Shown here piece by piece: positions 9,849 through 14,487 of a stretch of 64,000 bases of DNA (within the stretch, counting starts at the first letter, position 1; each line of letters starts with the position of its first letter). This DNA comes from an uncultured Pelagibacteraceae bacterium (GTDB taxonomy: Bacteria > Pseudomonadota > Alphaproteobacteria > Pelagibacterales > Pelagibacteraceae): positions 1-64,000 of the forward strand of contig CACOSU010000001.1 of NCBI GenBank assembly GCA_902629935.1, written 5' to 3'. Under the pieces are notes generated by a model. That model was not told the origin of the DNA, made no database searches, and saw only the letters and a list, made by a program, of their open reading frames with translations. The position numbers and the translations under genes are program-made.

Positions 9849-10868
9849 ATGATAAAAACAGATGCATTAATAATTGGAGCAGGACCAACAGGTTTGTTTA
9901 CTGCACATCAACTTAAACTAATTGGCTTGGACTGTGAGATAGTAGATAATTTGGATAAAATTGGTGGACAGTGCATTGAGCTATATCCAGATAAACCAAT
10001 TTATGACATACCAGCTGTGCCCGAATGCACAGGAGAAGAGCTTACAAATAATTTAATTAATCAAATTAAACCCTTTAATATTAAAACTCACTTAGGAGAA
10101 AGAGTCGATGAAGTTAAAAAAGATGGTGAGCATTGGTTTGTAAAAACAAATTTAGGTAAAACTTTTTTAACTCCAAATGTTATAATTGCTGGAGGAGTAG
10201 GTTCTTTTGAACCTCGAAAATTTTCTCCAAAAGAATGTGAAAAATATGAGAATAAATCAATATTTTACTCTGTAAAAGATAAAACAATATTTGAAGGAAA
10301 AACAGTTTCAATATTTGGAGGAGGGGATAGTGCTTTAGATTGGGCAGTAGAGCTATCAAAGTCATCTAAAGTAAATTTAATACACAGGCGTGACGATTTT
10401 AGAGGTGCACAAGCAACTGTTGATAAAGTTCATGAGCTTGCTAAATCTGGAAAAATTAATCTATATACAAAATATCAACTTACAAATGTACATGGAGGAG
10501 ATAATTTAGAAAGTATAGAGATAAAACATGACAGTGAAGAAGTTAAAACTATTAAGACAGATTTTATTCTTGGGTTTTTTGGTTTAATTATGCAACTTGG
10601 TCCAATTGCAGATTGGGGACTTAGCATTGATAAAAAAACAGTAACTGTTGACACAGAAAAATTTGAGACCAATCAAAAAGGAATTTATGCTGTTGGAGAT
10701 ATATGTTCTTACCCTGGAAAATTAAAATTAATTTTATCAGGATTCCACGAAGGTGCTTTGGCAGCTAGGGCTTGTTTTAAATTAGCAAGACCCAATGAAA
10801 AATATAGATTTGAATTTACAACATCTTCTAAAACAATTAAAGACAGACTCGGTGTAAAAAGTGATTGA
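9849..10868 (+). CDS. Ferredoxin-NADP+ reductase, thioredoxin-reductase-like
   Basis: FAD/NAD(P)-binding protein of 339 residues. An N-terminal FAD motif GAGPTGLFTAHQL (about residues 9-21) and a second nucleotide motif FGGGDSALDWA (about 156-166) show the TrxB fold, but the CxxC redox pair of thioredoxin reductases is absent. That is the mark of TrxB-like ferredoxin reductases. The C-terminal block YAVGDICSYPGK closes the FAD site. The preceding ferredoxin is its obvious partner. Its 3' end overlaps the glutathione-transferase gene by 8 bp. Confidence 0.93.
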   Translation: MIKTDALIIGAGPTGLFTAHQLKLIGLDCEIVDNLDKIGGQCIELYPDKPIYDIPAVPECTGEELTNNLINQIKPFNIKTHLGERVDEVKKDGEHWFVKTNLGKTFLTPNVIIAGGVGSFEPRKFSPKECEKYENKSIFYSVKDKTIFEGKTVSIFGGGDSALDWAVELSKSSKVNLIHRRDDFRGAQATVDKVHELAKSGKINLYTKYQLTNVHGGDNLESIEIKHDSEEVKTIKTDFILGFFGLIMQLGPIADWGLSIDKKTVTVDTEKFETNQKGIYAVGDICSYPGKLKLILSGFHEGALAARACFKLARPNEKYRFEFTTSSKTIKDRLGVKSD

Positions 10869-11487
10869 GCTATTCTCGGCCAATACGCCTAATGGGTGGA
10901 AAATTAGTATTATGCTAGAGGAGATAGGCTATAAATACAAAGTTACCAAAGTTGATATTGGTAATGATGAACAGTTCAAACCAGATTTTTTAAAGATAAG
11001 CCCTTTTGGAAAAATACCAGTAATCATTGATCATGATAATAATGAGAGTATTTTCGAGTCAGGTGCAATACTTATATATCTTGGCGATAAAAGTAACAAA
11101 TTTTATAACAAAAAAGATAGAACTATTATTAATCAATGGTTGATGGCACAGATGGGTACTGTTGGCCCAATGATAGGTCAACATCACCAGTTTCATCATT
11201 ATAATCCTGGCAAAAGTGAATTTGGTGAGGAAAGATATTTTAAGATTACTAAAAGGATTTACGGAGAATTAGATGCTAGATTAAATAAATCGCAATTTCT
11301 TGCTGGTCCTGATTATACAATTGCTGATATTGCAACATGGCCTTGGATGGCAAGACATGAGTGGCACGACATAGGATTAAAGAATTATAAAAACTTGTCT
11401 AGATGGTATTTAGAAATAGCAGAACGTGAAGCTGTTGTTAAAGGTTATAATTTTATGGAAATGAATGCTAAAATACCAAAAATTTAA
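10861..11487 (+). CDS. Glutathione S-transferase family protein
   Basis: A 208-residue two-domain protein. The N-terminal thioredoxin-like domain has the cis-proline segment FGKIPVIID and the glutathione gamma-glutamyl site ESGAILIYLG. A helical C-terminal domain follows, with TIADIATWPW. It resembles the YghU/YfcG/Nu class of bacterial GSTs, which act as disulfide-bond reductases. The start is GTG, overlapping the reductase gene by 8 bp, so translation is probably coupled. Substrate unknown. Confidence 0.88.
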   Translation: MIELFSANTPNGWKISIMLEEIGYKYKVTKVDIGNDEQFKPDFLKISPFGKIPVIIDHDNNESIFESGAILIYLGDKSNKFYNKKDRTIINQWLMAQMGTVGPMIGQHHQFHHYNPGKSEFGEERYFKITKRIYGELDARLNKSQFLAGPDYTIADIATWPWMARHEWHDIGLKNYKNLSRWYLEIAEREAVVKGYNFMEMNAKIPKI

Positions 11488-11491
11488 ATTT

Positions 11492-11587
11492 TTATCCAAA
11501 AAATCTGTAAAGTGTGCTTAGAATTCCATAACCTGAGAACTCAATAGCAACAATAACAATTATTATTAAAATTAATTTTTTATTCAT
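11492..11587 (-). CDS. 31-residue membrane micro-ORF downstream of dksA
   Basis: This short frame encodes MNKK followed by a strongly hydrophobic run (LILIIIVIVAI) and a short polar tail, i.e. one membrane helix. Its ATG overlaps the TGA of the preceding 38-residue micro-ORF as ATGA, the classic sign of coupled translation, and it ends 5 bp from the convergent glutathione-transferase stop. No family is recognised. Short hydrophobic ORFs can arise by chance; the support here is the exact head-to-tail arrangement with its neighbours. Confidence 0.5.
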   Translation of the reverse strand: MNKKLILIIIVIVAIEFSGYGILSTLYRFFG

Positions 11588-11700
11588 TTTAAGAACAAAT
11601 ATAGTAATAAAATTATCCAGAAAAAGGGATAGTAAAAATAAATATATTTCTTAGCAAAAAGAAAAGAAATTGAATTTTTTTTAGATGTTTTTTTTCTCAT
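11584..11700 (-). CDS. 38-residue basic membrane micro-ORF downstream of dksA
   Basis: Starts with ATG directly after the dksA stop (TAAATG) and ends in a TGA overlapping the next micro-ORF. It encodes a very basic N-terminus (MRKKTSKKNS), a short linker, then an aromatic and leucine-rich stretch (FFWIILLLYLFLK) that would form one membrane helix, with the positive end probably inside. No family is recognised. The tight junctions on both sides make a real coupled gene plausible, but there is no homology evidence. Confidence 0.5.
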   Translation of the reverse strand: MRKKTSKKNSISFLFAKKYIYFYYPFFWIILLLYLFLK

Positions 11701-12216
11701 TTAGTCGTCAGCATGAACTTTTTCATCTTTTTCGTGTTTTTCTTGCGCTGCTATTGTGTATTTGGCAACAGGTCTTGCCATTAATCTTTTTAATCCAATT
11801 GGTTCTGCCGTATCTAAACAATAACCATAAGTATCTTCCCTGATTCTTCTTAATGCTTTATCAATCTCTGATATTAATTTAATCTGTCTATTAATTGCTT
11901 TCATTTCTACATTGCTATCAATGTAGGAGTTTGCTTGGTCTACAATGTCAGCAGAAATATTATTATCATCCATGCTACCATTATAAAGCGCTTCATTATT
12001 AGCTTTAATTAATTCTTTTTTCCACTCAGTTAGTCTCATTCTGAAAAATACTTTATGTTTTTCACACATATATTTTTCAGTATCTTTTGGAATATAAGTT
12101 TTTGAAATTTTTATAGGTGTCTTTGTAACAACTTTAGTTGCAGTTAGTTTTGACTTTTTTACAACTTTAGTTTTTGGTTTTGATACTTTTTTCTTTGCTT
12201 TAGCAGTCTTTGGCAT
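11701..12216 (-). CDS. dksA: DksA/TraR-family RNA polymerase-binding regulator
   Basis: A 171-residue protein. The first 45 residues are a Lys/Ala/Thr/Val-rich basic tail; then comes the coiled-coil region (KHKVFFRMRLTEWKKELI...) with acidic residues near the expected tip, and a C-terminal globule GYCLDTAEPIGLKRLMARP. DksA binds the polymerase secondary channel and mediates ppGpp responses. The four zinc cysteines of classical DksA are reduced to one here (Cys in GYC; the others are Thr or Ala), so this is a zinc-independent, cysteine-poor type. Two micro-ORFs follow directly. Confidence 0.9.
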   Translation of the reverse strand: MPKTAKAKKKVSKPKTKVVKKSKLTATKVVTKTPIKISKTYIPKDTEKYMCEKHKVFFRMRLTEWKKELIKANNEALYNGSMDDNNISADIVDQANSYIDSNVEMKAINRQIKLISEIDKALRRIREDTYGYCLDTAEPIGLKRLMARPVAKYTIAAQEKHEKDEKVHADD

Positions 12217-12294
12217 AGCTTTATTTTAATCGCCCGCAGTATATTCAGCAAATTAGGGGTGTCAAGCAAGCTTAATTGATATAAATATTTGTAA

Positions 12295-13617
12295 ATGACC
12301 ATTAATAACAAAAATATTGATAATGTTTTTTATATTTTTGTTACAGCTCATCTAATTTTCTGGACTTTGATTCCATCACTTACAAATCATAATTTACCAC
12401 TTGATACAATTGAAGCTTTAGCCTGGGGCAGTAATTTAGATTGGGGTTTTAATAAACATCCACCTATGAGTGCTTTTTTTCCAGAAATCTTTTATCAAAT
12501 TTTTGGCTCTCGCGACTGGGCTTATTATTTATTAAGTCAAATTTTTGTTATTATTTCTTTTTATTATGTTTTTAAATTTTCAAACGAAATATTTAAAAAT
12601 AAATTATTAGGTTTAATTTCTCTATTATTAATAGAAACTATTTATTTTTATAATTTCACAACACCAGAATTTAATGTAAATGTTTGCCAATTACCTTTTT
12701 GGTCTTTAACAGTTTATTACTCATGGAAAATTTATTCTGGAAGAGAAGTAAAATTTTTAGATTGTTTTTTAGTAGGTTTGTTTGCAGCTTTGGGTTTTTT
12801 ATCTAAATATCTATTTATTTATCTATTAGTTTCAATTGATATTTTATTTATATATTTAATTTTTTATAAACAAGAGAGAAGTTTTGATTTTAAATATTTA
12901 ATTACTTTAGAAGTTTTCTTTGTAGCTTTAGTTCCACATTTAATTTGGTTAAATAATAATGAGTTTATCACAATCACTTACGGATTAGCCAGAACAGGCT
13001 TAGAACAATCTAGCTTTGTAGATCATATTAAATTTCCAGTAATCTTTATATTAAAACAAATAGGAATTTTAATTCCTTTTTTTATATTATCTTGGTTATT
13101 AATTAAAAAAATTATTTTAAATATTAATTTTAGAGACAAAAAATTACTTTTTTTATTAGCGATAAATGTTTTACCTATTTTTTTAATGTTTTTGACTTCA
13201 TTGATTACTGGATCAAAAATTAGAACAATGTGGATGACACCTTTTTACTTATTTTTTGGAAGCTTAATTGTTTATTTGTTTCAAGCTCAAATTAATCTAA
13301 AAAAACTAAAACCATTTATGATTGGATTTGTTTTCTTTTTCTTTTTATCTCCAGCACTTTATGCTTATGTATCAATTTCAAAAGATGATAAGAGAACAGA
13401 TTATCTAGGTAAAGAAATTGCAATAAAAACCCAATATGCTTGGGATAAACAATTTAATTCAACAATAAATGTTGTTTTAGGTGATGAATGGAGTGCTGGA
13501 AATTTATCATATCATTTAAAATCTAGACCAGTTTGGCAAGGTTTTGTTACAAGAGAAAAGTTAGATCAATTGCAGGATTATATGTGTCTTGATAATATTT
13601 GTGTAGGATCAAGATAG
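12295..13617 (+). CDS. Membrane glycosyltransferase, GT39/ArnT-like
   Basis: A 440-residue polytopic membrane protein with about ten hydrophobic segments. The first large periplasmic loop holds the family signature LDTIEALAWGSNLDWGFNKH followed by PPM, which carries the catalytic acidic residue of PMT/ArnT enzymes that move a sugar from a polyprenyl-phosphate donor. It opens an operon that continues with no gap (13617/13618) into a GT2 enzyme of the kind that makes such donors. The final acceptor is unknown; the downstream lyase-like proteins suggest an exported polysaccharide. Confidence 0.85.
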   Translation: MTINNKNIDNVFYIFVTAHLIFWTLIPSLTNHNLPLDTIEALAWGSNLDWGFNKHPPMSAFFPEIFYQIFGSRDWAYYLLSQIFVIISFYYVFKFSNEIFKNKLLGLISLLLIETIYFYNFTTPEFNVNVCQLPFWSLTVYYSWKIYSGREVKFLDCFLVGLFAALGFLSKYLFIYLLVSIDILFIYLIFYKQERSFDFKYLITLEVFFVALVPHLIWLNNNEFITITYGLARTGLEQSSFVDHIKFPVIFILKQIGILIPFFILSWLLIKKIILNINFRDKKLLFLLAINVLPIFLMFLTSLITGSKIRTMWMTPFYLFFGSLIVYLFQAQINLKKLKPFMIGFVFFFFLSPALYAYVSISKDDKRTDYLGKEIAIKTQYAWDKQFNSTINVVLGDEWSAGNLSYHLKSRPVWQGFVTREKLDQLQDYMCLDNICVGSR

Positions 13618-14487
13618 ATGAAATACATAATTTTAATTCCAATTTATAACGATAGAGAATCTTTAAAGTTATTGTTAGAAAATATTAATTCTGAAATTAA
13701 AGATTTAAATCATGAAATATCAATAATTGTTATAAATGATGGATCATCACAACAAATAATTGATAATTACCCAAACATAGAAAATATCAATTCTTTAGAA
13801 ATAATAAATATGAAAGAAAATAGAGGTCATGCAAGATGTATTGCATCTGGTTTAAAATATATTTATGAAAAAAAAGATTTTGATTATATAATTCCAATGG
13901 ATGGAGATGGCGAAGATAGACCTGAAGAAATACAAAATTTTATAGACTTAGCTGAAAAATCTAAAGATCAATCAATTGTTGGTGAAAGGGTAAAAAGATC
14001 TGAGGGCTTGATATTTAAAATATGTTATCAATTCCACAAATTTTTGACTTATGTATTTACAGGTCATTCCATTAAATTTGGTAACTTCACTTGTTTATCA
14101 AAATCAACAGTTAAGAAAATGTTAGACGAAAAAGCCACTTGGAATAGTTTTTCTGGCTCTTTAAAAAAATTAGAGGTAAATTTATTGTCCATTCCTTCAA
14201 TTAGAGGCAAACGATACACTGGTCCTTCTAAAATGAGTTTTTTTAATTTACTAAAACACTCTCTTTCAATAATAAGTGTTTTTAGAAAAACAGTTTTAAT
14301 TCGTTCAGCTTTATTTATAGTTTTTTATATTTTGTTAATCAAAAGCTACGCATCAATTATTACATCTATTCCATTAATTTTACTTTTAATTATGATATAT
14401 TCTATTTCATCATTAGCTTTGAGAGAAAATATTGATGAATTTGACAAATCACTTGAAAATATTAATGATATTGACAACATAAAATGA
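13618..14487 (+). CDS. GT2 glycosyltransferase, polyprenyl-phosphate sugar synthase-like
   Basis: Family 2 transferase of 289 residues. The N-terminal Rossmann-like strand IILIPIYNDRESL, NDGSS and the metal site MDGDGEDRP (DxD-like, near residue 99) match dolichyl-phosphate mannose/ArnC-type enzymes that load a nucleotide sugar onto a lipid carrier. Two hydrophobic helices lie near residues 220-260. Its ATG follows the upstream GT39 stop directly, and it overlaps the next gene by 4 bp (ATGA). It probably makes the lipid-linked donor for the GT39 protein. Confidence 0.87.
   Translation: MKYIILIPIYNDRESLKLLLENINSEIKDLNHEISIIVINDGSSQQIIDNYPNIENINSLEIINMKENRGHARCIASGLKYIYEKKDFDYIIPMDGDGEDRPEEIQNFIDLAEKSKDQSIVGERVKRSEGLIFKICYQFHKFLTYVFTGHSIKFGNFTCLSKSTVKKMLDEKATWNSFSGSLKKLEVNLLSIPSIRGKRYTGPSKMSFFNLLKHSLSIISVFRKTVLIRSALFIVFYILLIKSYASIITSIPLILLLIMIYSISSLALRENIDEFDKSLENINDIDNIK

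Follow-up and report, generated by a model that had tools for sequence, protein, structure and literature searches.

Two very short genes directly downstream of dksA in an uncultured Pelagibacteraceae bacterium, here called P1 and P2, look like real coding genes under purifying selection, and related genomes tend to keep both of them even where the two are no longer adjacent. As an explanation we consider it moderately probable that they encode lineage-specific single-span inner-membrane microproteins that would act as one two-part unit, accessory in a larger membrane complex; part of this explanation is that the position behind dksA is one of several docking places and reflects no functional tie. 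The window, i.e. the whole stretch of DNA that was analysed, is 64,000 nucleotides long with a G+C content of 30%; a bacteriorhodopsin-like gene lies near the locus, and the named organisms among the relatives of its DksA are Pelagibacteraceae. Together with an sRNA described below (SAR11_0636), these features mark the genome as one of SAR11, of the Pelagibacter type.

The dksA-P1-P2 locus

The three genes lie on the minus strand. The dksA gene (11701–12216; 171 aa, domains DksA_N and zf-dskA_traR) is the upstream gene of a likely transcription unit. The P1 open reading frame (ORF; 11584–11700) encodes a 38-aa microprotein with a basic tail and one hydrophobic helix, and P2 (11492–11587) encodes a 31-aa microprotein in which a membrane-length helix with the motif IExSGxG is accompanied by a short second helix. 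A sequence-only reading of this DNA had described the P1 ATG as following the dksA stop at once and the TGA of the 38-residue frame as overlapping the ATG of the 31-residue frame, and the ORF coordinates bear out both statements: there is no gap between the dksA TAA and the P1 ATG (TAAATG), and the P1 stop and P2 start overlap by 4 nt (ATGA, 11584–11587, minus strand), a junction at which termination-reinitiation is expected. The same reading had P2 ending 5 bp short of the next, convergent gene; the gap is indeed nearly filled, but the stops of P2 and of that gene are separated by 4 bases (11488–11491) rather than 5. The convergent gene encodes a glutathione S-transferase relative (10861–11487, plus strand), bounds the unit, and is a neighbour of P2 in many relatives' loci.

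Upstream of dksA, the element TTGACA-16-TATACT (12238–12265, minus strand) matches the promoter consensus at 11 of 12 positions and, by this consensus match only, is the likely promoter of dksA-P1-P2; sites of this type in the region (7, as against a shuffle mean of 6.3) are not more numerous than chance would give. Farther on, two plus-strand genes encode a PMT_2 glycosyltransferase (12295–13617) and a family-2 glycosyltransferase (13618–14487); in one clade of relatives, P2 stands directly after the former and directly before the latter.

DksA invites an observation of its own. The window protein has a lysine-rich N-terminal extension, and a single cysteine is found in the last 56 residues both in the window and in all 82 distinct loci compared below, mostly in the setting GYCLDT...YTIAAQ. 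The DksA of Escherichia coli has a four-cysteine zinc finger, which, to judge from these residues, looks to have been lost here; a zinc-free DksA may suit a metal-poor ocean.

Evidence that P1 and P2 are coding genes

Can frames this short be trusted to be genes? Searches with DksA led to 110 loci (30 from a search in which 321 of 399 genomes matched, and the top 80 among 524 confirmed places), of which 82 distinct dksA-downstream loci, the window included, were left once identical downstream sequences had been removed. Both frames are intact in 79 of the 82. Stops or frameshifts in close relatives, which the sequence-only reading had set as its refuting observation, were not found; at the other three loci (L005, L019 and L091) both genes are absent, and no broken remnants of them were seen there. 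At L091, the gene after dksA is presumably that of an ABC transporter, going by its look.

Substitution in these frames is strongly biased toward synonymous change, as had been proposed as a check: dN/dS is 0.043 for P1 (27 codons, 67 distinct sequences) and 0.069 for P2 (29 codons, 71 distinct sequences), compared with 0.030 for the last 140 codons of dksA, taken as a control, and 0.85–5.5 in the two shifted sense frames, all of these values being rough because synonymous sites are close to saturation (pS 0.49–0.59). On the reverse strand, one frame gives 0.18, which is low because that frame has its third positions in common with the coding frame, and the others give about 1 or more. The junctions, whose conservation had likewise been put forward as a check, are kept as well: the P1/P2 overlap is 4 nt in 77 of the 79 loci, 8 nt in one and 16 nt in one. 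The start of P1 takes several forms, namely an ATG at the dksA stop, a start 1–3 nt past it, a GTG, or an ATG within the last dksA codons, the last of these serving P1 where the usual ATG is missing.

Frames joined this exactly had been called unlikely by chance. In a simple first-order Markov model (20,000 trials), an ORF of 38 codons starts no more than 6 nt past a stop with a probability of about 0.017, and a coupled pair such as P1-P2 has one of about 0.0004 per gene; at the same time, an ORF of at least 30 codons begins between −20 and +12 nt from the stop of 32 of the 51 larger window genes. In other words, tight junctions are common here, and it is the comparison with relatives that decides on coding. 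A Shine-Dalgarno-like 4-mer was found ahead of neither the P1 nor the P2 start in any of the 79 loci. We had taken this as a possible sign of coupling and dropped the idea, given that 45 of the 51 larger window genes are without the motif too.

Could the conserved stretch function as an RNA element, or be open only by chance? It is short and AT-rich, and the missing Shine-Dalgarno-like 4-mer fits a non-coding stretch, but then just 6 of the 51 larger window genes have one. The codon-position pattern and the low dN/dS in the predicted frames speak against this reading, as do an RNA fold z-score of −0.42 and the fact that Rfam yields just one match at gathering score for the whole window, some way off at 19.8 kb (the SAR11_0636 sRNA, RF01827, 19786–19875, 111.6 bits). 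At the level of sequence comparison we regard it as already refuted, with practically no probability left to it.

Predicted products and family searches

The model of P1 has one helix (residues 8–37, mean pLDDT 77), and that of P2 has two (residues 3–20 and 22–30, mean pLDDT 89) with a break in the SGxG motif. Kyte-Doolittle maxima over 17 residues are 1.89 for P1 and 2.46 for P2. P1 combines its lysine-rich tail with a helix rich in tyrosine and tryptophan, and the residues F, K, I, Y, Y, W and L are invariant among 81 distinct canonical P1 sequences; in P2, the I, E, S, G and G of IExSGxG are invariant in 82 of 82 distinct sequences. At 38 and 31 residues, both products lie well within the length of at most 50 aa used for small membrane proteins, and each is predicted to have one membrane-length helix. 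The earlier suggestion that these are small membrane proteins thus gains support from purifying selection and from one predicted hydrophobic helix each.

No convincing relative of either protein emerged from Pfam, where the queries were the two window peptides, 34 members for P2, 20 for P1 and 4 P1-like sequences, from NCBIfam, queried with all of these except the P1-like sequences, or from profile searches of the PDB. The best Pfam match of P1 was Renin_r (E 0.0082, 3 of 20 members) and its best NCBIfam match had an E-value of 0.11; the best NCBIfam match of P2 was TIGR04527 (E 0.0026, 1 of 34 members). In the PDB, a xanthan lyase (E 1.7) was the sole match of P2, and P1 had none. We also considered P2 as a member of the YobH-like family PF13996 and rejected it: window P2 matches with E 0.077 and 13.5 bits, for a gathering score of 27, and 3 of the 34 P2 members match at E ≤5, the best at 0.02. 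The listings of open-access literature that were searched gave no description of the P1 or P2 genes. On these sequence comparisons, our verdict is that P1 and P2 would be new protein families, belonging to the familiar kind of small single-span membrane proteins.

Within the samples searched, P1 and P2 are restricted to this lineage. Of the 399 genomes in the genus sample, 282 have P2 by profile A1; the broad profile A3 finds it in 106 of 197 order genomes belonging to 2 of 10 genera, and among the 190 genomes of the class sample it occurs only in the window genome. One further class-sample match (17 residues, E 0.004, within a 142-aa frame) was taken as chance.

Short, hydrophobic, coupled products, one of them with a basic tail, might also bring to mind small hydrophobic toxins or a toxin-antitoxin pair. 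We find this extremely improbable: the genomes listed in the search of the order sample have one P2 match each, purifying selection on the peptides is near that on dksA, retention across the genus is wide, and searches of viral contigs gave 14 and 110 pattern matches, for none of which a relationship to P2 or P1 was confirmed.

Changing genomic neighbours

The sequence-only reading had tied the two peptides to the stringent response, and in the window the case for such a tie is easy to see, since P1 and P2 lie on the same strand as dksA, follow it without a gap and have a candidate promoter upstream of dksA from which a common message could arise. Moreover, in 51 of the 79 loci of a tree of the flanking proteins, P2 is found in the interval from dksA to the glutathione S-transferase gene, 50 times with P1 and once (L178) without it. 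Linkage to dksA is nonetheless not stable among relatives, in which other neighbours and unlinked forms occur. Besides the dksA-P1-P2 order of the window, the pair is found behind a TPR gene or one with a PhyH domain, and dksA is then farther away; it overlaps the end of carB at L146 and lies about half a kilobase past carB at L172–L174, where the open frame before P1 is presumably a MOSC gene, judging by its look; and at L160 a divergent MOSC-type gene is all that stands upstream of it. P2 is also found without P1, not only after dksA at L178 but in a different place at L179; in genus g5 it is alone, directly past a tRNA-Leu gene in two of four loci scanned. At L164 and L168 (genomes G129 and G055), P2 starts about 45 nt past its neighbour's stop with no adjacent P1. 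For some other neighbours we use labels that are presumptive: the names YgfZ and QPRT are ones we assume, the YgfZ-labelled neighbour being without a Pfam match at 1e-5.

Against membership in the stringent response, then, stand the pairs that sit behind PhyH, TPR or carB genes and are parted from dksA, a whole clade in which P2 belongs to a different operon with P1 elsewhere, and the persistence of dksA without either peptide at L005, L161 and L162. The pair stays joined while its upstream gene changes, so that dksA is just one of the places where it docks, and the proposed tie loses its basis; we now think it very unlikely that P1 and P2 belong to the stringent response coupled to DksA from a common message.

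The clade just mentioned suggests a different target. At 18 loci, P2 has no P1 beside it and is flanked by the PMT_2 gene on one side and the family-2 glycosyltransferase gene on the other; in 17 of the 18 it is at most 6 nt from the stop codon of PMT_2. In these genomes P1, where found, is elsewhere, and dksA is still near P2. Might P2, with P1, be an accessory subunit of this pair of enzymes? Both enzyme genes lie next to dksA in the window, and small anchor subunits, as in dolichol-phosphate-mannose synthase or in the form of Ost4, provide a precedent. On the tree of flanking proteins (glutathione S-transferase and DksA; SH-aLRT supports only), however, this arrangement is confined to one side of a single branch (support 93), which makes it weak evidence for the target. 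For this tree, 104 loci were offered and 79 used, the other 25 being dropped because they held too little of the two proteins; the four arrangement states require 7 changes on it. In addition, both enzymes are encoded in genomes G012 and G082, where neither P1 nor P2 was found, and unlinked P1 accompanies unrelated metabolic genes. We therefore regard a role as glycosyltransferase subunit as rather unlikely.

Unlinked P1 and its diverged forms

The neighbours of P1 point in several ways. We read P1 loci in 12 genomes in which P2 is away from P1 or absent. In eight, P1 directly precedes an arginase-family gene, followed by an aldehyde dehydrogenase gene; the domain assignment comes from Pfam on L203 only, and 'agmatinase' is a name that we presume for this gene. 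The junctions of these eight are ATGA overlaps in six cases, a GTGA in one and an 8-nt overlap in one. At L208 and L209, P1 follows a short-chain dehydrogenase gene (Pfam on L208), and L211 and L212 carry a diverged form, P1x.

P1x is present in 18 of 197 order genomes, three more weak matches being P1 itself. In the P1x loci read, the gene comes after an aldehyde dehydrogenase gene, and in several it precedes a DsbD_TM-type gene. One locus (L247, genome G054) has a 73-aa P1x with an extra C-terminal tail, directly before an arginase-type gene as canonical P1 is elsewhere. In genus g5, a further form, P1g5 (L253–L263), is found in 11 of the 12 genomes with P2; it is a basic single-helix protein of 43–45 aa, four example sequences of which are 84–95% identical to a fifth. 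P1g5 lies between rhodopsin- and ferredoxin-like genes in five of six loci read and elsewhere at L221. A functional tie to proteorhodopsin, suggested by this site, was dropped: G012 and G082 have a rhodopsin gene, and P1 and P2 were not found in them.

How closely do these forms belong together? In hhalign comparisons with the P1 profile, P1x scores 95.4% and P1g5 95.6%, over 22 columns, and P2 scores 0.5%; with only about 20 aligned columns common to P1, P1x and P1g5, convergence is possible. Canonical P1 and P1x occur at separate sites in the same genome in 0 of 197 order genomes.

Co-retention without adjacency

When the three forms are counted together as P1-type genes, 101 of the 197 order genomes have both a P1-type gene and P2, 5 have P2 only, 7 have a P1-type gene only and 84 have neither. 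A P1-type gene is thus present in 101 of 106 genomes with P2 and in 7 of 91 without it, counts that are uncorrected for phylogeny and in which the association is favoured by a search for P1g5 made in 26 genomes, 19 of them P2-positive. A Fisher test on this table takes genomes as independent, and its value should be read with reserve. By their coordinates, the two genes are not neighbours in 42 of these 101 pairs. This joint retention suggests that P1 and P2 probably belong with each other rather than with dksA.

The genomes with a single member, i.e. P2 without a detected P1-type gene (G037, G287, G417, G430 and G502) or a P1-type gene without P2 (G004, G141, G205, G233, G317, G498 and G520), are perhaps partly the product of assembly gaps. 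A weak P1 match in G401 is interrupted by two stops and was left out of the final table. In four one-contig genomes (G402, G408, G012 and G082), neither a P1-type gene nor P2 was found, so the unit is not essential everywhere; three others assembled as one contig (G298, G385 and G411) carry both. On the flanking-protein tree, G082 (locus L162) branches among relatives with the dksA-P1-P2 order, a placement that makes loss of the pair there the most likely explanation.

Proposed function and outlook

How might such a unit work? In the window genome, P1 and P2 are probably transcribed with dksA, and where the genes are adjacent, termination-reinitiation at TAAATG and ATGA would probably fix the ratio in which the two are translated. 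We infer that both peptides insert in the inner membrane, the lysine-rich tail of P1 probably being cytoplasmic. P2 would place its invariant glutamate inside the membrane span, with a break at SGxG and a short second helix, and this buried glutamate and the glycine face could lie directly against the helix of P1. The pair would then most likely serve as a small accessory or stabilising subunit of a larger housekeeping membrane complex encoded elsewhere. A stronger version of this proposal is possible, and we offer it tentatively: P1 and P2 could be a SAR11-specific two-helix subunit, an obligate heteromer, of a core energy or transport complex, whose genes move about the streamlined genome independently and join unrelated operons through stop/start overlaps, and which has been given up altogether in some lineages.

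Known systems offer partial parallels. One study finds genes of heteromeric complexes overrepresented among those with short overlaps (PMC10666635), and overlapping gene pairs for heteromeric subunits resemble P1-P2, with its 4-nt ATGA, in that coupled translation is expected. Unlike such pairs, P1 and P2 are non-adjacent in many relatives, and both are still kept. CydX, a 37-aa subunit of E. coli cytochrome bd oxidase (PMC4325964), is similar to P1 and P2 in its size, its few invariant residues and its being often unannotated. It differs in that no CydX model is among the P1 and P2 matches and that the P1 and P2 genes swap neighbours instead of being tied to one enzyme operon; no cytochrome bd gene was seen among the subset of neighbours scanned with Pfam. 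KdpF is a small accessory membrane protein, comparable to P1 and P2 in size, in having one helix and in probable binding to a larger membrane protein. The same likeness extends to AcrZ, another small accessory membrane protein (PMC7267776). There is no sequence match to either, and P1 and P2 differ from both as two distinct microproteins kept together. The resemblance of P2 to the YobH-like family is a weak one of hydrophobic helices, far under the gathering score.

As this case shows, the neighbourhood in one genome, here that of dksA, can suggest a function that finds no support once more genomes are compared. Few cells in the ocean are as abundant as SAR11 bacteria, whose genomes are very small, and two strongly conserved microproteins that match no family model may point to a missed part of their membranes. 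Joint retention without adjacency provides a handle that sequence data can turn: a large protein with a matching pattern of presence and absence would be the candidate partner of P1 and P2.
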